DNA from: a bacterium
GTDB lineage: Bacteria; Patescibacteriota; Patescibacteriia; SG8-24
Reading direction: 5' to 3'
DNA length: 43,411 nt
NCBI GenBank assembly: GCA_023246195.1
Contig: JAHFIW010000007.1
Span: forward strand, 1 to 43,411
Part shown: positions 1,241 to 11,415 of the stretch, in pieces
How positions within the stretch are numbered: position 1 is the stretch's first letter
Layout of the letters: every line of letters begins with the position of its first letter
The notes under the pieces: model-generated
Databases searched by the model: none
What the model was told of the DNA's origin: nothing
What the model saw: only the letters and a program-made list of their open reading frames with translations
Translations under genes and position numbers: made by a program

Positions 1241-2077
1241 ATGGGCACATTGCGCAAAATTTCCCTCTTCGTCGTCGTTCTCGGCATCTTTTTGGTCGCT
1301 ATTGGGGGGATTGTCTTTTTTGCGCGCCAACCAAAGCCTGCGGGGCAGCATCTGACGAATCTTCCTTCGGGGATTCTGGATAATCCCACGACCGCCACCC
1401 AAATAACTGATGCGCAAAATGGCGGTGTCGGTGCGGCTGCTTCTTCGCCTTCCGTTGCCGGATCGGGCGGTACGTCATCGCAGGTATCGGCACACGATAC
1501 GAGCTCCAGCTGTTGGATTATCATCCTTGGCAAAGTCTACGACGTCACCAATTTCCTAAGCTCTCATCCCGGCGGCATCTCGGCGATCACGCCGTATTGC
1601 GGCAAGGATGCCACTTCCGCCTTTCAGACCCACGGATATGCCGGCGGTGCGAATCATTCCGCATACGCCTACTCCCTGCTGCCGTCTTATTACATCGGAG
1701 ACCTTTCTTCTTCGGCAACCGCGTCCATTTCCACTACATCGATACCAAAGCCGCCTCCCGCACCGGTCGTGGCCAAGTTCTCGGATGCGCAGGTCATCGC
1801 GCATCATACGAGGTCCAGCTGCTGGATCGTCATCTTTGGCAGGGTGTACGACGTGACCAGTTTTCTTACCGTTCATCCCGGCGGGGCTTCTATCATCATC
1901 AGCTATTGCGGCACGGATGCCACGGTCGCTTTCCAGACTCACGGAGAGGCGGGAGAAGGGAACCATTCCGCATACGCCTATTCGCTTCTGCCATCCTACT
2001 ACATCGGTGACTTGAGCACGTCGACCGGTGGCGGCACCTTGCATAAGGGCTTGCTTCCCGGAGCGGGTGACGATTAA
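1241..2077 (+). CDS. Membrane-anchored protein with two cytochrome b5-like heme-binding domains
   Basis: N-terminal TM (MGTLRKISLFVVVLGIFLVAIGG) and two copies of SCWI..GKVYDVT.FL..HPGG...YCG.DAT.AFQTHG....NHSAYAYSLLPSYYIGDL. Confidence 0.85.
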   Translation: MGTLRKISLFVVVLGIFLVAIGGIVFFARQPKPAGQHLTNLPSGILDNPTTATQITDAQNGGVGAAASSPSVAGSGGTSSQVSAHDTSSSCWIIILGKVYDVTNFLSSHPGGISAITPYCGKDATSAFQTHGYAGGANHSAYAYSLLPSYYIGDLSSSATASISTTSIPKPPPAPVVAKFSDAQVIAHHTRSSCWIVIFGRVYDVTSFLTVHPGGASIIISYCGTDATVAFQTHGEAGEGNHSAYAYSLLPSYYIGDLSTSTGGGTLHKGLLPGAGDD

Positions 2078-2178
2078 CGGCAAGTGCCGTCATTCCCGCG
2101 TTGCGGGACAAGATGTGCGTTGTCCGTGAGCGCGATTTCATGTTAGCATGAAGCGTAATCGCACTATGTTTCGGCAGT

Positions 2179-3603
2179 ATGCCTGCAGCACCTTCGGTAA
2201 CGGACGGCTCGGAGTTGGGCGCGCGTGCCAAGCTCAAGGACATCGTCGGCGACCTCATGATCCGCAAGGTTCCCGCCTACGGAAACAGTTTTTTTTATTC
2301 GCTCGGCTTTCTTTCGATGACCAGCCTGCTGATGCTCGTCGGTACGGGCATCATCATGGTCGTGGTCGGTCCCAACTGGTGGCTCACGAGCCGTTCGGGG
2401 CTGTTCGTTCGCGGCGTTCATCTCTGGTCGACGCAGGCCTTCGTGATCTTCATGCTTCTTCACCTTCTCGTGGTCTTTCTGACCTCGGGATTCAAGGCAC
2501 CTCGCCGCTTCACGTGGGTGCTTGGGTCGCTGATGTTTTTCTTTGCGTTGATGGAGGCGGAATTTGGCTACGGCCTTCGTAACGATTTCTCCTCGCAATG
2601 GCGGGTGCTGCAGGCCTCCGACCTGTATAACGGCAGCGGCTTGGGCGTGCTGGTCAACAATTTGAACTACGCGCAGATATACGGCATTCACATCGTCGTC
2701 ATTCCGCTGCTCATTTTGGCGCTGCTGTTCGGTCACTATCTGCTCGTGCGCGTACGGGGGATCGCGAAGCCGTATCGCGTCGACGTGCCGTATCGCGTCG
2801 TTCCTGCCGACCACCGTAAACTTTTCATGCGTGGAGGAGCGCTGATCGCCGTGATCCTCTTTTTGGCCGCCGTCTTCAAGGCGCCGTTGATCCTGCCGGA
2901 TTCCATCCGAAGCGTCTCGAAGGACGCCCCCGGCCTCATCGCCAAAACCGTGCTCGACGAGTGGGGCGAGTCGTCAGATACGGCGAACTACAGCGACAAC
3001 ATCAACCCGTATGCTTTCGATACCAAGTCCGTCTATGTCGCCGTGCCGTACGGACAGTATCTGGCCGTACACGGCGGTCCGGACATGTTCGCCGCGTTTA
3101 ACGCGTTGGATGACGCCTCTCAAAAGCGTGATCTTGACTCCGCAGCGGCGTATTTCGGTCAGGATTTTTCCGTCGATGCCGCCGCGGACGATTCGAATCC
3201 GGCGATCGCCGTCACGGGAGGGCTTGTGAAGATGGCGCAGTCCGGTCTCTATGAGGCCGCGTTGCAGGGCGAGGAGACCTCCGTGGCCGACCGCACGTAC
3301 GCCACGCGTTTTCTGGCGGATACCGGCGTGCTCGAAGACAAGGCCAAGGAAAAGCAGATGACGACGGCGCAGTACGGCATGGTGCGCGACGAGGAAAAAT
3401 TTATTCCCGGTGCGTGGTGGCTGACTCCGCTTGGCCTGTTGGACAACACCCTGTTGGTCAACGACGATAACCAGGATCGTGACGGTGCCGAGATTCTCGG
3501 CGTGCTCCTCTTGCTGTTCGTGGCATTCCCGTTCATTCCGGTCCTCAACCGTTTGCCGGAAAAACTCAGGTTGGCCAAGTTTTTCTGGCGTGACAAGTCT
3601 TAA
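2179..3603 (+). CDS. Cytochrome b/b6-type membrane protein with an unusual C-terminal extracytoplasmic region
   Basis: Helices with H-x13-H (HLWSTQAFVIFMLLH) and H-x14-H (HIVVIPLLILALLFGH), the bis-heme ligand pattern of the cytochrome b N-terminal domain; C-terminal TM LGVLLLLFVAFPFIPVLNRLPEKL. Confidence 0.85.
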   Translation: MPAAPSVTDGSELGARAKLKDIVGDLMIRKVPAYGNSFFYSLGFLSMTSLLMLVGTGIIMVVVGPNWWLTSRSGLFVRGVHLWSTQAFVIFMLLHLLVVFLTSGFKAPRRFTWVLGSLMFFFALMEAEFGYGLRNDFSSQWRVLQASDLYNGSGLGVLVNNLNYAQIYGIHIVVIPLLILALLFGHYLLVRVRGIAKPYRVDVPYRVVPADHRKLFMRGGALIAVILFLAAVFKAPLILPDSIRSVSKDAPGLIAKTVLDEWGESSDTANYSDNINPYAFDTKSVYVAVPYGQYLAVHGGPDMFAAFNALDDASQKRDLDSAAAYFGQDFSVDAAADDSNPAIAVTGGLVKMAQSGLYEAALQGEETSVADRTYATRFLADTGVLEDKAKEKQMTTAQYGMVRDEEKFIPGAWWLTPLGLLDNTLLVNDDNQDRDGAEILGVLLLLFVAFPFIPVLNRLPEKLRLAKFFWRDKS

Positions 3604-3641
3604 TTGCTCCGGGAATTTTTTCATCGTTAACAGCAACGCCT

Positions 3642-5072
3642 ATGAAGGGCCCATTTAAAAAAATCGGCATCATGTCGGCCGTCCTCGTCTTGCTTTCCGT
3701 CGGCGGTTTCACCTGGTATCGCCTGCAGCGTCCCGAGACGGAGCCGACGGGAGAGACGGAAAGCGCGGCGGAGAACAAGAACGAGCAGCCTTTTGAGGTT
3801 GCGGTGAAGGATCCCGTTCCGGTCACGGACGCGGAAGCGAAGGCTACGCCGATGGTGGCCACTGCCCTCGGCGGATACGACGTGCTGATCGCCGACAAGG
3901 GAAATAACCGCATCATCGAAGTGACGCCGGACAAGCATATCGTCTGGGAGTATGACTTCGATTTGCCGCGTCCCGGTCTGGGTGCCGATGACGCGTTTTT
4001 CGCTGATGGCGGCAAGACCATCGTTGCCGGCATGGAGGATTGGAACATGATCATGCTGATCGACTACGCCACCAAGAACGTCATCTGGGAATATGGCACG
4101 CCAGGAATGCCCGGCTCGAAGGACGGCCAGCTCAACACTCCGGATGACCCCTACAAGTTACCGAACGGGAACATCACCGTCGCTGACATCAAGAATTGCC
4201 GGGTTATCGAGATTTCTCCGGACAAGAAGATCGTGCGCCAGTACGGCACTCCTGGAAAATGCTCCAATCGCCCTGGCTTTTTGAATAAGCCGAACGGCGA
4301 CACTCCGCTGCCCAACGGTCACACGCTGGTCAGCAACATCGTCGGGCACTCGTTGCTGGAGCTCGATGAGAATTGGAAGCCCGTTTTTTCGATGTCGCTG
4401 CCGTTGCAGTATCCTTCTGATCCCCAGATGACCAAGGCCGGCAACATCCTGATTGCCGGGTACACCAACCCCGGCAAGATCATGGAGGTGTCCAAGGACG
4501 GCAAGATCGTCTGGCAACAGGCCGAAACCAGCGGCCCTTTGCGGATGAAGTTCCCTTCGCTGGCGATCGAGCTGCCGAACGGGAACATCCTGGCGAATGA
4601 TGATGACAACGACAGGGTCATCGTCATCGACAAGGCCACGCACGCGATCCTCTGGCAGTATGGCGTGGTGGGCAAGCCGGGTCGCAGCCCCGGACAGGTG
4701 AACGACCCCGATGGCGTCGACATCATCATGCACGGTGATGCGACGGTCTCTTCGGGCCCGGCAGCCGTGCCGACCGCGAAGGCGGGGCGTGTCGGTGACG
4801 TTTCACGGCATCCGCTGCAGTTCGTGGGCAAGTCGGTGACGGTCAACGGCTATTCGCTCAAGAGCGAGGGTGATTACGTCATCATCTCCGATGAGGCCAC
4901 GGGCATTCCGGGATATTATGACATGCCGGTGTTCGGTACGGGCATCTCCGTGGTCATGCCGAAAAAGCTCTACGCGTTTACCGGAATGTTCGTCGGTGAC
5001 ACGCAAAAGACCGGCAAGCGCAGCCCGTACCACCTGGAGCTTTCGCAGCCGCCGACGGAGGTGGCGCCGTAA
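3642..5072 (+). CDS. Membrane-anchored NHL/PQQ-like (arylsulfotransferase-like) beta-propeller protein with C-terminal OB-fold-like region
   Basis: N-terminal TM; repeated blades such as VLIADKGNNRIIEV...IVWEYD, NITVADIKNCRVIEISPDKKIVRQYGTPG, NILANDDDNDRVIVIDKATHAILWQYG. Confidence 0.7.
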   Translation: MKGPFKKIGIMSAVLVLLSVGGFTWYRLQRPETEPTGETESAAENKNEQPFEVAVKDPVPVTDAEAKATPMVATALGGYDVLIADKGNNRIIEVTPDKHIVWEYDFDLPRPGLGADDAFFADGGKTIVAGMEDWNMIMLIDYATKNVIWEYGTPGMPGSKDGQLNTPDDPYKLPNGNITVADIKNCRVIEISPDKKIVRQYGTPGKCSNRPGFLNKPNGDTPLPNGHTLVSNIVGHSLLELDENWKPVFSMSLPLQYPSDPQMTKAGNILIAGYTNPGKIMEVSKDGKIVWQQAETSGPLRMKFPSLAIELPNGNILANDDDNDRVIVIDKATHAILWQYGVVGKPGRSPGQVNDPDGVDIIMHGDATVSSGPAAVPTAKAGRVGDVSRHPLQFVGKSVTVNGYSLKSEGDYVIISDEATGIPGYYDMPVFGTGISVVMPKKLYAFTGMFVGDTQKTGKRSPYHLELSQPPTEVAP

Positions 5073-5100
5073 TGCAATCATCTCCCGATTTTTTGTGCGC

Positions 5101-6258
5101 ATGAATAAGAAGATGCTGCTCGTCATCGGCTGTTGGTGCCTCGTGGCGTCCTTTTTCGCGGCACCCGTCTTGGCGAGTGCCGTTTCGGTTCCGCAGAAAA
5201 AAATCCGCATATTGATCGTTCCCGGCCACGAGCCTGACTCCGGCGGCACCTCGTTCCGCGGTCTCAAGGAACGCGACCTGAACGTCATCCTCGGGCAGGA
5301 CCTTCGCAAGTACCTGCAGGCCGACGGACGCTATGACGTGCTGATGACCCGTGATGCTAAGGGCTGGAATCCGATTTTCGCGAAATATCTCAAGGACGGC
5401 CGCGACGACATCATCGCGTGGCGGAACGCGGCGATGCGTAACATGGCGGGCCTGATCGTTTCGGGCGCGGCGCCAAAGCCTATTTCTCAGGTGGATCACA
5501 ACGTGGCCGACCCGGACGTTTCGGTAGAACTGTACGGCATCAACAAATGGGCCGACGAGAACGGCGTCGATGTCACCGTGCACGTCCATTTCAACGAGCA
5601 TCGCGATTATCCCAGCAGGGTTCCCGGTCAGTATTCCGGCTTTACCATTTACGTTCCGGCCCCGCAGTACGCGAACGGCTCAGCTACGCGAGCCATTGCG
5701 GAAAAGGTCTTCGGGCGTCTCTCGAAGTATGACCCCGTTAGCGACCTTGCCGGCGAATCGGACGGGGTCGTCGACGAGCCGAACCTGATTGCCGTCGGTG
5801 AGGACAATACCGCCAATGCTCCAAGCATGCTCATAGAATACGGCTATATGTACGAAAAACGTTTCACTGATCCGGTAATCCGGAGCCTGGCTCTCAACGA
5901 TCTTGCCTACCAGACGTACGTGGGGCTGCGCGATGCCTTTGGCCAGGAAGACAAGCTTGACCCGTTCGGCACGTCGGTGTTGCCTCACTCGTGGCGCGTC
6001 GCGATGGCGCGCGGGGCGGGACATGCTGTCGACGTCTTCGCTTTGCAGACGGCGCTCATTTCGAGCGGCGAATATCCTCCGGCGCGCATGGGCAAGAACG
6101 ATTGTCCTCGCAGCGGCGTGTTCGGCAATTGCACCGTCGCGGCGCTCGACGCCTTCCAGCGCAGGTACGGGATCAAGGGCGAGGCCGGTTATGCCGGAAA
6201 GAAGACCGTTGCCAAGCTCAATGGCCTGTTCTCCTCTCAATTGCTGAGCAAGCGCTGA
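5101..6258 (+). CDS. Secreted N-acetylmuramoyl-L-alanine amidase-like hydrolase with C-terminal peptidoglycan-binding domain
   Basis: Signal peptide MNKKMLLVIGCWCLVASFFAAPVLA; ILIVPGHEPDSGGTSFRGLKERDLNVIL...VTVHVHFNEH (amidase_3-like); C-terminal ALQTALISSGEYP...GVFGNCTVAALDAFQRRYGI (PG_binding_1-like). Confidence 0.75.
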   Translation: MNKKMLLVIGCWCLVASFFAAPVLASAVSVPQKKIRILIVPGHEPDSGGTSFRGLKERDLNVILGQDLRKYLQADGRYDVLMTRDAKGWNPIFAKYLKDGRDDIIAWRNAAMRNMAGLIVSGAAPKPISQVDHNVADPDVSVELYGINKWADENGVDVTVHVHFNEHRDYPSRVPGQYSGFTIYVPAPQYANGSATRAIAEKVFGRLSKYDPVSDLAGESDGVVDEPNLIAVGEDNTANAPSMLIEYGYMYEKRFTDPVIRSLALNDLAYQTYVGLRDAFGQEDKLDPFGTSVLPHSWRVAMARGAGHAVDVFALQTALISSGEYPPARMGKNDCPRSGVFGNCTVAALDAFQRRYGIKGEAGYAGKKTVAKLNGLFSSQLLSKR

Positions 6259-6309
6259 GGCCGTGAAAGATAAGCGCATCGAGCGTTGTAAAAGGTATAT
6301 ACTCCCGGA

Positions 6310-6888
6310 ATGACTGCTATGCCCCAATCTACCGATGAGGAAGTCGCGGCATGCGTGCAGCGGGGCGATTCCGACGCTTTTGGCACGCTTATCGAGCGTT
6401 ACGATGAAAAAATGGGCCGATATGCCCATCGTTTCATGGCGGACGACGAGGACGTGAAGGATATCGTCCAGGAACTGTTCATCAAGGCGTACGTCAACAT
6501 CCGCAGCTTCGACACGAGCCGCAAGTTTTCGTCGTGGCTGTATCGGATTGCCCATAACGAGTTCGTCAACGCCCTCAAAAAGAAGAAGCGTGAAATGGTC
6601 TCGTTCGTCGATTTCGACGAGCTGTATCCCGGACCGGTGTCTGACCGCACCGCGGACAGCCAGGCGCAGCATGCCGAATTGCGGCAGATGCTGGAAACGC
6701 ACCTGCAGGAAATCAGCCTCCGCTATCGCGAACCGCTGATCCTCAGTTACTTCGACGAGCTCAACTACAACGAAATCGCCGACGTCCTCCGCATTCCCGT
6801 ATCGACTGTCGGAGTGCGCCTGAAGCGCGGACGCGAGGCGCTCCGGAAGGTCATGAGCGATGGTCCGGTCAAAAAGAAAAATCTATGA
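6310..6888 (+). CDS. RNA polymerase sigma-70 family (ECF-type) sigma factor
   Basis: Region 2 DAFGTLIERYDEKMGRYAHRFM.DDEDVKDIVQELFIKAYVNIRSFD and region 4 YREPLILSYFDELNYNEIADVLRIPVSTVGVRLKRGREALRK. Confidence 0.9.
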   Translation: MTAMPQSTDEEVAACVQRGDSDAFGTLIERYDEKMGRYAHRFMADDEDVKDIVQELFIKAYVNIRSFDTSRKFSSWLYRIAHNEFVNALKKKKREMVSFVDFDELYPGPVSDRTADSQAQHAELRQMLETHLQEISLRYREPLILSYFDELNYNEIADVLRIPVSTVGVRLKRGREALRKVMSDGPVKKKNL

Positions 6889-7619
6889 ATGACGAGCGAG
6901 CACAATTAAGGACTGACGGTGAAGCGACGGGGGAGGCGAAGTCACGCATCCTCGGCGTCATTCACGATCGCGGCGTCGCCATGCGCCCGCGCTGGCACTT
7001 CGTGTTGCGCGGCGTGCTGGCCGCGTTGGGCTGCGCCATCATGTTCGCCACGCTCCTGTACCTGGCGAGCTTCGCGGTATTCGTGCTTCGTTACACGGGA
7101 GCGTGGTTCGTGCCCGCGTTCGGCGTGCGCGGATGGCTCGTCTTGCTGCTGTCACTGCCGTGGTTCCTCGGCATCATGATCGTGCTGTTCATCGTGGTCC
7201 TTGAGATTTTGGTGCGTCGATACTCGTTTGCCTACCGTCGGCCGCTGCTGCTGTCATCGGCGGCCCTTTCGGCGCTTGTCATCTTCGGCGGCGTCGTCGT
7301 GGGCATGACGTCCTTTCACGGCAGGGTATCGCGCTTCGCCTCAGAGAACGCCCTTCCCGGTTTCGAGAACATGTATCACGAGCTGGAAAGCTGGCATCGC
7401 GACGACGTGCATCGCGGGGTCATCAAAAAAATGACCGAGAAAGGCTTTATTTTTCGCGAATATGACGGAGACGTTCTCAACGTCGTCATCGTGCCGAAAA
7501 CGAATGCCATCGATACCGATCTCGCTCCGGACGACATCGTCGTGGTGTTCGGCCGCGAAGGCAGGGGCATTATCGAGGCGGACGGCGTCCGACGCCTTTC
7601 GCCGTCCGACGTGGAATGA
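6885..7619 (+). CDS. Multi-pass membrane protein, candidate sigma-factor regulator
   Basis: ATGA overlap with the sigma factor gene; about four hydrophobic segments followed by a soluble C-terminal domain. Confidence 0.6.
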   Translation: MNDERAQLRTDGEATGEAKSRILGVIHDRGVAMRPRWHFVLRGVLAALGCAIMFATLLYLASFAVFVLRYTGAWFVPAFGVRGWLVLLLSLPWFLGIMIVLFIVVLEILVRRYSFAYRRPLLLSSAALSALVIFGGVVVGMTSFHGRVSRFASENALPGFENMYHELESWHRDDVHRGVIKKMTEKGFIFREYDGDVLNVVIVPKTNAIDTDLAPDDIVVVFGREGRGIIEADGVRRLSPSDVE

Positions 7620-7684
7620 AAGATGGGGGCAGCGGCCGTTGTAGTAAGAAGGTGCCGGCCACTGCGCCACTTTCAGTTTATCGT

Positions 7685-8263
7685 ATGCGAAAATTTTACC
7701 TGACACTTTTCCTTGCATTGACGTTCGGTGCGTACGTCTGGTACGCGAATGCGCAATCCGCTAAGGACGGGGCCGCAGTGGCCATGATCGCTCCGGATTC
7801 CCGCGTGTTGCCCGCGCCGCAGCCTTCCTCGCCGGCGCAGGTTGACCCGCCGCAGCCGTCCGTGCCGGCCGCGAACGTGCCGACCGGACAACCCGCTCCG
7901 GTGGCAGCACCAAAGCCGATCGTGAAGCCCAAACCCGCACCGGCGCCAAAGCCGGTTGCGCCTCCAAAGCCCCGCGGCATGTATGCCGACGGTACCTATC
8001 GCGGCACTCCCGGAGACGCGTATTACGGCTACGTGCAAGTCGCCGCAGTCATCAGCGGCGGCCGGCTTGCCGACGTGCAAATCCTTGATCATCCCAGTGA
8101 TCGGAACCGCTCGGTCTACATCAACAGCATCGCCATGCCGGCGTTGGTCTCCGAGGCTCTTCGGGCGCAAAACGCCCAGATAGATTTCGTTTCCGGCGCG
8201 ACCGATTCGAGCATGGCCTTCCGCGATTCGCTGTCCTCGGCGTTGGCACTGGCACGCAATTAG
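7685..8263 (+). CDS. Secreted FMN-binding (FMN_bind) domain protein
   Basis: Signal/anchor MRKFYLTLFLALTFGAYVWYANAQS, Pro/Ala/Lys-rich linker, then GYVQVAAVISGGRLADVQILDHPSD...DFVSGATDSSMAFRDSLSSALA with SGAT flavinylation-type motif. Confidence 0.85.
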   Translation: MRKFYLTLFLALTFGAYVWYANAQSAKDGAAVAMIAPDSRVLPAPQPSSPAQVDPPQPSVPAANVPTGQPAPVAAPKPIVKPKPAPAPKPVAPPKPRGMYADGTYRGTPGDAYYGYVQVAAVISGGRLADVQILDHPSDRNRSVYINSIAMPALVSEALRAQNAQIDFVSGATDSSMAFRDSLSSALALARN

Positions 8264-8264
8264 T

Positions 8265-9026
8265 ATGCGCGAATCAAGAATGATGATGGGCATGCCCATC
8301 ACGATAGACGTCGCCGACCCGGGCGCTGATGTTTCCGCTCTCGAGCGGGTCTTCGAGCACTTTCGCCAGGTTGACGAGCGTTTCAGCACTTACAAGACTA
8401 CCAGCGAGATCTCGAAACTGAACGACGGACGCATCAGCTTGGACGAATGCAGTCCCGAAATGCGCGACGTGCTTGCGCGCTGTGAAGAGACCAGGCAATT
8501 GACCGGCGGGGCCTTTGACATCGTTGACCGCAACGGCCGTCTTGAGCCGGCTGGCTTGGTTAAGGGCATGGCGATTCGTGATGCGGCCGCGCTCCTTTCG
8601 TCGATGGGGTACGAAAACTATTACGTCGACGCGGGCGGCGACATTCAGGCGCACGGGCGTAACGCGCAAGGTCGGCCGTGGACCGTCGGCATCCGCAATC
8701 CGTTCGGCGGCACCGGCATGGTGAAGGTCTTGCAAATCGAAAACGCCGGCATTGCCACGTCCGGAACGTATCTCCGCGGCCAGCACATCTACGACCCGCG
8801 CAAAAAAGGGGAGCCGATCATGGATATCGTCAGCCTTACGGTCATCGGTCCCGACATCTACGAGGCAGACCGTTTTGCTACCGCCGCGTTCGCCATGGGT
8901 CGTGAGGGCATCTCTTTCATCGGACGAGTTGCGGGACTCGAGGGGTATCTCGTCGATGCGGCCGGAATTGCCACCATGACCGACGGTTTTCAGCGGTTTG
9001 TCATTGATTCGTCTTCCCATGCTTGA
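8265..9026 (+). CDS. apbE: FAD:protein FMN transferase (ApbE family)
   Basis: VDERFSTYKTTSEISKLN, LTGGAFDIV, GLVKGMAIRDAA, YVDAGGDIQAHG, WTVGIRNP, IATSGTYLRGQHIYDPRKKGEP; no signal peptide at the only upstream-limited start. Confidence 0.88.
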   Translation: MRESRMMMGMPITIDVADPGADVSALERVFEHFRQVDERFSTYKTTSEISKLNDGRISLDECSPEMRDVLARCEETRQLTGGAFDIVDRNGRLEPAGLVKGMAIRDAAALLSSMGYENYYVDAGGDIQAHGRNAQGRPWTVGIRNPFGGTGMVKVLQIENAGIATSGTYLRGQHIYDPRKKGEPIMDIVSLTVIGPDIYEADRFATAAFAMGREGISFIGRVAGLEGYLVDAAGIATMTDGFQRFVIDSSSHA

Positions 9027-10539
9027 ACTCATCGACCGACTCCTCAACAGAACGACGATGTATCGGCTGGTGCTGTACGTCTGTGTCGCCGAGCTCGCGC
9101 TTGGTGCGGTACTTGGAGGACTCGGCATTTTGCCGTTCAGTCCGGTTGCGCTGATCCTTTCGACTGCGGTCATTACGGCGACCTGCATCCTTTCCAACGT
9201 CGTGTTCGCCCGTATCATGAAGGCTCCGGTGAACCGCGAATCAGCCATCATTACCGCGCTCATACTGGCGCTGATCATTTCGCCGATCGTGCCGTTTCAG
9301 CTGCCGGGACTCGGCTTTCTCGTTTGGGCCTCGCTGTTGGCCATGGCTTCAAAATACGTCATTGCCGCTGATCGCGACCACGTCTTCAATCCCGCGGCTT
9401 TTGCCGTGGTCATCACGGCCGTTGCCGTCGGCCAGTCGGCGAGCTGGTGGGTGGGCAGCATGTCGATGTTGCCTGCCGTGGCCATCGGCGGCGCCATGAT
9501 CGTACGGAAGATCCGCAGGGAAGACCTCGTCTGGTCCTTCTTTGCCGCCGCGTTGGTCACCGGTGCCGTGACAGCCTCGTCGGGCAGCGCGCTCCTTTCG
9601 ATGGAGCGCGCGGTCCTGCATACGCCGCTGATTTTTTTCGCGACGCTGATGCTGACCGAGCCGCTGACGACCCCGCCGACGCGCTCCCTGCGCATTGCCT
9701 ATGGGGCGTTCGTCGGGTTCCTTTCCGCGCCGGCTATCCACGTCGGCGCAGTCTACTCGACGCCGGAACTCGCGCTTGTCGTCGGCAACCTTTTTTCCTA
9801 CGCGGTGAGTCCTACCGGAAAACACCTGCTGACGCTCACGTCGAGGGTCCAACTTTCCAGGGATTCGTTCGAATTCGTCTTTTCCTCGCCTCGGCCCGTG
9901 CCGTTCCGCGCGGGGCAGTACATGGAATGGACGTTGCCGCATCGCAGTCCGGATGATCGCGGCGTACGGCGCTACTTCACGATGTCCTCATCGCCAGAAG
10001 ACCGGATGGTCAAGGTCGGCATCAAGTTCTGCCTGGAACCGAGCAGCTTCAAAAAGCAGATGGGCGACATGGTTCGCGGCGACGTCATCATGGCCGGCGA
10101 GATTGCCGGAGACTTTGTCCTTCCTCGCAATCGGCGCAAGAAGCTGGCCTTCGTCGCGGGCGGCATCGGCGTCACGCCGTTCCGAAGCATGGTGCAATCC
10201 CTCATTGACAGGGGCGAATCACGAGACGTGGTCCTGCTGTATGCCAACAAGACCGTCGAGGATATCGCTTATCGCGACGTGTTCGACGAGGCCAGGACCG
10301 TCATCGGCATGAAGACGTCGTATGCGCTGTCCGAAGTCGCGCAAGCGCCGCCGAATTGGAACGGCCCGCTCGGCATGCTTGATGCCAGGACCATCGCAGA
10401 GGAGATTCCCGATTACGCCGATCGATTATTCTACATTTCCGGACCTCATGGCATGGTCACCGCCTTCGAATCGTCCCTTGCGGCCATGGGCGTAAGTCAC
10501 AAGAACATCAAGACTGATTATTTTCCCGGCTTCGTCTGA
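9019..10539 (+). CDS. NqrB/RnfD-like membrane domain fused to ferredoxin-NADP reductase-type FAD/NAD(P)-binding domain
   Basis: N-terminal polytopic region with HVFNPAAFAVVI and FFATLMLTEPLTTPPT (RnfD/NqrB-like); C-terminal RRYFTMSSSP (FAD RxYS/T), VAGGIGVTPFRSMVQ, LFYISGPHGMV, KTDYFPGF. Confidence 0.85.
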   Translation: MLELIDRLLNRTTMYRLVLYVCVAELALGAVLGGLGILPFSPVALILSTAVITATCILSNVVFARIMKAPVNRESAIITALILALIISPIVPFQLPGLGFLVWASLLAMASKYVIAADRDHVFNPAAFAVVITAVAVGQSASWWVGSMSMLPAVAIGGAMIVRKIRREDLVWSFFAAALVTGAVTASSGSALLSMERAVLHTPLIFFATLMLTEPLTTPPTRSLRIAYGAFVGFLSAPAIHVGAVYSTPELALVVGNLFSYAVSPTGKHLLTLTSRVQLSRDSFEFVFSSPRPVPFRAGQYMEWTLPHRSPDDRGVRRYFTMSSSPEDRMVKVGIKFCLEPSSFKKQMGDMVRGDVIMAGEIAGDFVLPRNRRKKLAFVAGGIGVTPFRSMVQSLIDRGESRDVVLLYANKTVEDIAYRDVFDEARTVIGMKTSYALSEVAQAPPNWNGPLGMLDARTIAEEIPDYADRLFYISGPHGMVTAFESSLAAMGVSHKNIKTDYFPGFV

Positions 10540-10623
10540 GCGGGCCGTAAGAAATAGTCCGATCGTCCGTCGTATTACGGTGGAGAGAATATTAATCGTC
10601 TTATAAAGCGTTTGCATACCCAT

Positions 10624-11415
10624 ATGCGCAACAACAAGTCCCTTGCAGCCAGCGCCATTTCGGCCGCCCTGCTTCTTACTCTTGCCATGCCGGTCATGGC
10701 CGCTACGACCTCGACCGGTGCCGGCGCTCCGTCATCCAGCGCGCTGACTTCTCAGCAGAAGTGCGATGCCAAGACGGCCGATGCCGCCCTGAAACTCGCC
10801 AAGAACCGCGCCGACGCCGACGCCAGGCTCGCCAAGAACCGCGCCGACGCCGACGCCAGGCTTCAGAAGAGCCAGGCTGAGCAGTTTGCCAGGCTCTCAG
10901 CCAAGCAGGCTGAGCAGGACGCCAAGATCCAACTGATCCGTCAGAAGCGCGATCTTAAGGGGTATTCGTCCGCCGACTTGAAGGCTGCCGTTGCCTCTTA
11001 TCAGGCCGCAATCGACGCGGCCACCAAGACCCGCCGCGATGCGGTCACTGCTGCCACCAAGTCTTTTGATGACGCCAGGACTGCGGCGCTCGCGACTCGC
11101 CAGGCCGCAATCGACGCGGCCACCAAGACCCGCCGCGATGCCGTGGACGCCGCCTTCGCCACTTGGCAGGCACGTTGTTCCGGAACGTCCGCCGACCTCA
11201 AGGCCGCCGACAAGTCCTTTAAGGATGCCGTCGCCGCCGCCCAGAAGGCCGGTAAGGACGCCATGAACGCTGCCATGACTGCGTACAAAACGACGATGGC
11301 TGGCGACAAGACCGTGCGTAAGTCCGCGGTCGATGCCGCCGGGGCCGCCTACTCCGCCGCAGTGAAGTCCGCGAAGGACGCGCTTGTCGCCGCTCGCAAG
11401 GCATCCAAGGCGTAA
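10624..11415 (+). CDS. Secreted Ala/Lys/Asp-rich repetitive, probably helical protein
   Basis: Signal peptide MRNNKSLAASAISAALLLTLAMPVMAA; repeats (A)KNRADADARL and QAAIDAATKTRRDAV. Confidence 0.7.
   Translation: MRNNKSLAASAISAALLLTLAMPVMAATTSTGAGAPSSSALTSQQKCDAKTADAALKLAKNRADADARLAKNRADADARLQKSQAEQFARLSAKQAEQDAKIQLIRQKRDLKGYSSADLKAAVASYQAAIDAATKTRRDAVTAATKSFDDARTAALATRQAAIDAATKTRRDAVDAAFATWQARCSGTSADLKAADKSFKDAVAAAQKAGKDAMNAAMTAYKTTMAGDKTVRKSAVDAAGAAYSAAVKSAKDALVAARKASKA
10798..10862 (+). repeat. Tandem ~33-bp duplication within the Ala/Lys-rich gene
   Basis: gccaagaaccgcgccgacgccgacgccaggct occurs twice in tandem. Confidence 0.85.
11002..11142 (+). repeat. Direct repeat, 41 bp, 99 bp apart (11002-11042 and 11101-11141)
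   Basis: caggccgcaatcgacgcggccaccaagacccgccgcgatgc present twice, identical; period is 33 codons. Confidence 0.85.

Follow-up and report, generated by a model that had tools for sequence, protein, structure and literature searches.

An NQR/RNF-like flavinylation gene cluster with cytochrome b, tandem cytochrome b5 and propeller genes in a Patescibacteria genome

Could a short run of genes in a Patescibacteria genome encode a route for electrons from NAD(P)H to the outside of the cell? Beam et al. (2020, PMC7507113) describe members of this phylum as ancestrally without electron transport chains. The window analysed was the whole 43,411-nucleotide stretch of contig JAHFIW010000007.1 (assembly GCA_023246195.1), from a genome of 1,168,061 bases which is 98% complete. 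The domains, cofactor motifs and gene order of the cluster at 1241-10539 were determined, as were its conservation and co-occurrence in relatives. Nine co-directional genes were found on the + strand with intergenic gaps of -8 to 101 bp, which agrees with the same-strand, closely spaced run proposed in the initial annotation:

1241..2077, +, tandem cytochrome b5 protein with one N-terminal TM segment; Pfam Cyt-b5 6.7e-45 over two stretches, a cysteine pair per domain
2179..3603, +, bis-haem cytochrome b6-type membrane protein of a CPR family; PF13631 3.9e-16, an insert precedes the C-terminal TM segment
3642..5072, +, beta-propeller with an extra C-terminal domain and a hydrophobic segment at the N-terminus; NHL/PQQ-like matches
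5101..6258, +, N-acetylmuramoyl-L-alanine amidase with peptidoglycan-binding domain; Pfam Amidase_3 2.4e-16, PG_binding_1 1.2e-7
6310..6888, +, sigma factor of the ECF type, which putatively regulates the module; TIGR02937 2.3e-32
6885..7619, +, tm6 membrane protein of 244 aa, putative anti-sigma factor or sensor; four predicted TM segments, no Pfam match
7685..8263, +, FMN_bind protein, probable ApbE substrate; Pfam FMN_bind 6.8e-5, just over the cut-off, motif SGATDSS
8265..9026, +, ApbE FMN transferase without signal peptide; Pfam ApbE 7e-43
9019..10539, +, fusion of an NqrB/RnfD-like membrane domain and an FAD/NAD(P)H reductase, 506 aa; NQR2_RnfD_RnfE 2e-10 and NAD_binding_1 5.8e-15

Two gene calls were corrected: the most likely starts are ATG 9019 for the fusion and 7685 for the FMN_bind gene. 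The widest gap (101 bp) separates the cytochrome b5 gene from the cytochrome b gene, while the sigma factor and tm6 genes overlap by 4 bp. Terminator-like matches within the cluster were at the level of shuffled sequence, so that a single transcription unit for all nine genes is possible, if unproven. All of the domains named at the outset were supported by profile HMMs, the propeller weakly. Pfam searches revealed no quinol oxidase, Rieske protein or cytochrome c among the nine genes, as had been claimed, and no CXXCH motif was present in the cluster proteins scanned, a set without the sigma factor. An Ala- and Lys-rich repeat protein with a signal-like N-terminus and no Pfam match is encoded 72 bp downstream of the fusion, at 10612-11415.

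The flavin core consists of the last three genes, those for FMN_bind and ApbE lying directly upstream of the fusion. The latter joins an N-terminal PF03116 (NqrB/RnfD) domain and a C-terminal PF00175 (NAD-binding) domain in a single protein; its AlphaFold model had a pLDDT of 84.7, and Foldseek matched the reductase half to NqrF and cytochrome b5 reductase folds. Full-length or split fusions were identified in 60 of the 384 phylum genomes sampled, this set being hand-picked from the match table with both kinds of match counted, and close relatives of the window protein occur in Magasanikbacteria, Doudnabacteria, Saccharibacteria and similar groups. Of 76 non-redundant fusion loci, 50 had an FMN_bind gene no more than three genes away and on the same strand; for ApbE the number was 45, and 40 loci had both. 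Genes for cytochrome b, cytochrome b5 and the propeller were absent beside the fusion at nearly all of these loci.

The chemistry of ApbE is established for related proteins. An SGAT or SGAS flavinylation motif was found in 38 of the 58 FMN_bind proteins scored, while no conserved SGAT-type motif was detected in an alignment of 16 fusions, all from CPR and none of them separate NqrB or RnfD sequences. A hydrophobic N-terminus was recorded for 55 of the 58 FMN_bind proteins and was lacking in 51 of the 53 ApbE proteins at the loci scored. In the window, the FMN_bind N-terminus is hydrophobic yet under the TM threshold used, and the TM scan revealed no hydrophobic N-terminus in ApbE. Judged by sequence, the ApbE of fusion loci appears to be cytosolic, a puzzle given the N-termini of the FMN_bind proteins. 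Characterised secreted ApbE proteins are lipoproteins; one ApbE without a signal is known and its substrate is cytosolic. The initial annotation was silent on the signal-less ApbE, as it was on the propeller linkage and the recurring pair of ECF sigma factor and membrane protein described below.

The proposal that a host of CPR type encodes ApbE and a flavin module linked to NAD(P)H was supported. Novelty of this core was not, the core being the already-known NQR/RNF-like flavinylation system of CPR. Meheust et al. (2021, PMC8238504), who report that system mainly from Actinobacteria and CPR, define it by a fusion of PF03116 and PF00175 together with FMN_bind and ApbE; the parts consulted of this paper and of Huang et al. 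(2024, PMC10979944) describe the same cluster of fusion, FMN_bind and ApbE as in the window, and do not mention the cytochrome b, tandem cytochrome b5 and propeller which the window adds. Starr et al. (2018, PMC6031116) also noted, in the Saccharibacterium T. rhizospherense, a protein joining NqrB-like and NqrF-like domains, for which they proposed a place in an electron transport chain; they further describe an FeS domain in that protein and a bo3 oxidase in the genome, neither of which was found here. Compared with the Na+-NQR and RNF complexes, the nine genes do not include a full NqrA-F or RnfA-G set, containing only NqrB/RnfD-, NqrF- and FMN_bind-type parts.

The best PDB match of the cytochrome b protein was cytochrome b6 (7.4e-18). 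The haem ligands H81, H95, H171 and H186 are all present, and the four histidines were invariant across 15 aligned homologues; in these bis-His haem helices the protein resembles cytochrome b6 and the cytochrome b of bc complexes. It differs from them in lacking PEWY, in its extra insert and in having Ser at the position aligned with Cys35 of b6. PEWY was absent from the 15 homologues, in which PG[A/P]WWL or a similar sequence was observed at the likely equivalent site, placed by eye. In further contrast to the b6 and bc systems, no Rieske or cytochrome c/f gene was noticed among the neighbours of the CPR cytochrome b genes, nor was a Rieske or cytochrome c gene present among the nine. A single-sequence AlphaFold model of this protein was of low confidence (pLDDT 48.2) and was dropped.

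Members of the PF13631 cytochrome b family were found in 16 of the 384 phylum genomes, with a patchy distribution and, in some, as split genes. At five loci (L111, L118, L121, L122 and L123) the split form comprises a b6-type part, a C-terminal part and a protein of ~120-140 aa in a row. Among 116 relatives the host genome gave the sole match and the other 115 none, so the nine-gene arrangement may be recent. The cytochrome b and fusion genes lie apart in most genomes; in G403 cytochrome b lies ~5 kb from a fusion and FMN_bind, and in G459 within ~5 kb of ApbE and FMN_bind.

Five gene pairs were tested for co-occurrence among the 384 phylum genomes, with the host genome left out and genomes treated as independent; four of the cytochrome-b genomes belong to one family (f142). 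With relatedness thus ignored, cytochrome b occurred together with the fusion in 11 of 15 genomes against 2.3 expected (p=4e-7), the propeller with cytochrome b in six of eight carriers against 0.3 expected (p=3e-8), and the propeller with the fusion in five of eight (p=0.003). On the same footing, relatedness ignored, the association of cytochrome b and fusion persisted in genomes free of COX1 (6/10, p=3e-4). A Fisher test with f142 collapsed to one genome was set aside, because the genome retained carried the fusion. The first of these results supports the earlier suggestion that cytochrome b is a partner of the flavin module. As to the co-conservation that the suggested gene-neighbourhood check was to test, it was found for FMN_bind, ApbE and the fusion, and as co-occurrence for cytochrome b, but cytochrome b5 was not constant.

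The tandem cytochrome b5 protein has its TM segment at residues 9-27, four Cys, and HPGG plus a second haem histidine in both domains. A Cyt-b5 domain was found in just two of the 16 cytochrome-b genomes, so cytochrome b5 is regarded as an occasional addition; it was rejected as a conserved partner of cytochrome b. The propeller gave a Pfam PQQ_2 match under the cut-off (4.8e-6) and NHL-repeat matches in the PDB (5.9e-10), and in G131 a homologue with 52.6% identity is encoded in one run with FMN_bind, ApbE and the fusion. No amidase homologue was seen beside the fusions of relatives, and the amidase is possibly unrelated to the module.

Pairs of an ECF sigma factor and a tm6 homologue adjoin the fusion operons of L065, L169, L182 and L205 in raw neighbour counts, and a tm6 homologue also lies beside the fusion operon of L180; the L065 homologue gave a weak DUF5666 match. 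Response-regulator/kinase-like pairs, recognised by sequence inspection, adjoin other fusion operons, again as raw counts. The cluster is probably ECF-regulated.

Based on these results, we consider it an even call that the cluster is a Patescibacteria form of the NQR/RNF-like flavinylation system, extended by a haem branch into an outward NAD(P)H chain; the direction of the electrons, the placement of the haem proteins, the acceptor and the regulation are what we infer. The reductase half of the fusion would pass electrons from cytosolic NAD(P)H to FAD, and the NqrB/RnfD-like half would carry them across the membrane to FMN covalently attached by ApbE to the FMN_bind protein. From there they may reach the haem carriers, cytochrome b and the tandem cytochrome b5, and finally an acceptor outside the cell, for instance an oxidised metal or a different oxidant, by which reducing equivalents would be disposed of. 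The sigma factor and its membrane partner would probably switch the cluster on upon an outside signal. Of the chain initially drawn from NAD(P)H through the reductase fusion to haem and FMN_bind proteins, the flavin module and the cytochrome b association are retained, and cytochrome b5 as the regular end point is not. What looks new is the association of cytochrome b and the propeller with this system, as judged from co-occurrence and linkage. A broader proposal, that a Rieske-free, CPR-specific cytochrome b family, NQR/RNF-like modules and a dedicated secreted propeller form a quinol-independent flavin-haem conduit, a minimal electron-export chain in some oxidase-free Patescibacteria, is offered tentatively and is in our judgement fairly unlikely. 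If this family of cytochromes b is really paired with NAD(P)H oxidation by flavins in often oxidase-free genomes, the pairing would be a candidate means by which Patescibacteria dispose of reductant or conserve energy, one that is concrete and testable and that names the proteins to study.

The neighbours of some relatives' fusions suggest a role with metals. In Pfam searches, Nramp was found directly downstream of the fusion locus in L070 and L071, ZnuA near L038, VIT1 near L039, and cupredoxin domains among the neighbours of some fusions; near L197, L210 and L219, proteins resembling CsoR and P-ATPases were recognised by sequence inspection alone. Meheust et al. 2021 (PMC8238504) likewise list six clusters with VIT1. 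The core could then be an extracytosolic ferric or cupric reductase serving metal uptake or detoxification, with cytochrome b, cytochrome b5 and propeller as separate neighbours. We regard this as unlikely, since metal genes adjoin a minority of the loci by raw counts, none of the nine genes encodes a metal transporter, and cytochrome b and the propeller are associated with the module.

The lack of cytochrome b, cytochrome b5 or propeller genes beside the core in most relatives, the missing linkage of the amidase and cytochrome b5, and the 101-bp gap after the cytochrome b5 gene would also fit two or three unrelated operons brought together by chance. Against this stand the tight same-strand spacing and the linkage of propeller and cytochrome b in other genomes, and we think it quite improbable.

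COX1 was found with the fusion in 16 of 29 genomes against 4.5 expected (p=2e-7), and five of 15 cytochrome-b genomes carried COX1 (p=0.003), relatedness being ignored in both counts. Quinone and haem scavenging has, moreover, been proposed for a Saccharibacterium. One may imagine the fusion and cytochrome b working with scavenged quinone and, where present, a haem-copper oxidase, in a respiratory chain to O2 that is modular or a remnant. Ten of the 15 other cytochrome-b genomes have no COX1, however, PEWY is missing, and neither Rieske nor cytochrome c genes were noticed among the neighbours; we think this reading, too, quite improbable. For the host itself such a chain was rejected: in family searches, on which all genome-wide statements on the host rest, the 98%-complete genome gave no match to COX1 (PF00115) or CydA (PF01654). 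The same searches found F-type ATP synthase a subunits and no ferrochelatase, so haem would have to be acquired.

Inward flow, with the haem proteins taking up outside electrons and the fusion working backwards to produce NAD(P)H, is compatible with a direction not fixed by sequence alone, but it is highly improbable, as reduction of NAD(P)+ would have to be driven by an ion gradient or by a donor of low potential, and Meheust et al. 2021 (PMC8238504) propose unidirectional outward flow for NQR/RNF-like systems.

Literature searches, from which subscription journals were mostly absent, returned no work joining CPR, FMN-binding and cytochrome b5, and nothing related on Patescibacteria and cytochrome b5. 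Within the class, six loci from six families (L075-L080, in G016, G063, G013, G012, G084 and G044) encode a cytochrome b5 protein adjoining an FNR-type membrane protein; in L075, the sole one profiled, the neighbour is Ferric_reduct plus FNR. Like the window, these Ferric_reduct/FNR and Cyt-b5 loci place an NAD(P)H-type transmembrane reductase beside a cytochrome b5 protein, whereas the transmembrane domain is a different one and the cytochrome b5 proteins are shorter. In five class genomes the cytochrome b5 protein adjoins a small membrane protein, and the one profiled gave a weak PepSY_TM/DUF4405 match. Two further FMN_bind proteins were recorded: one in L060 (8777-9262) has SRAT, not SGAT, at the flavinylation site, and another in the host genome (L004, 8247-9565, G000:C9) forms, with ApbE, a second pair of another subtype cut by the contig end.
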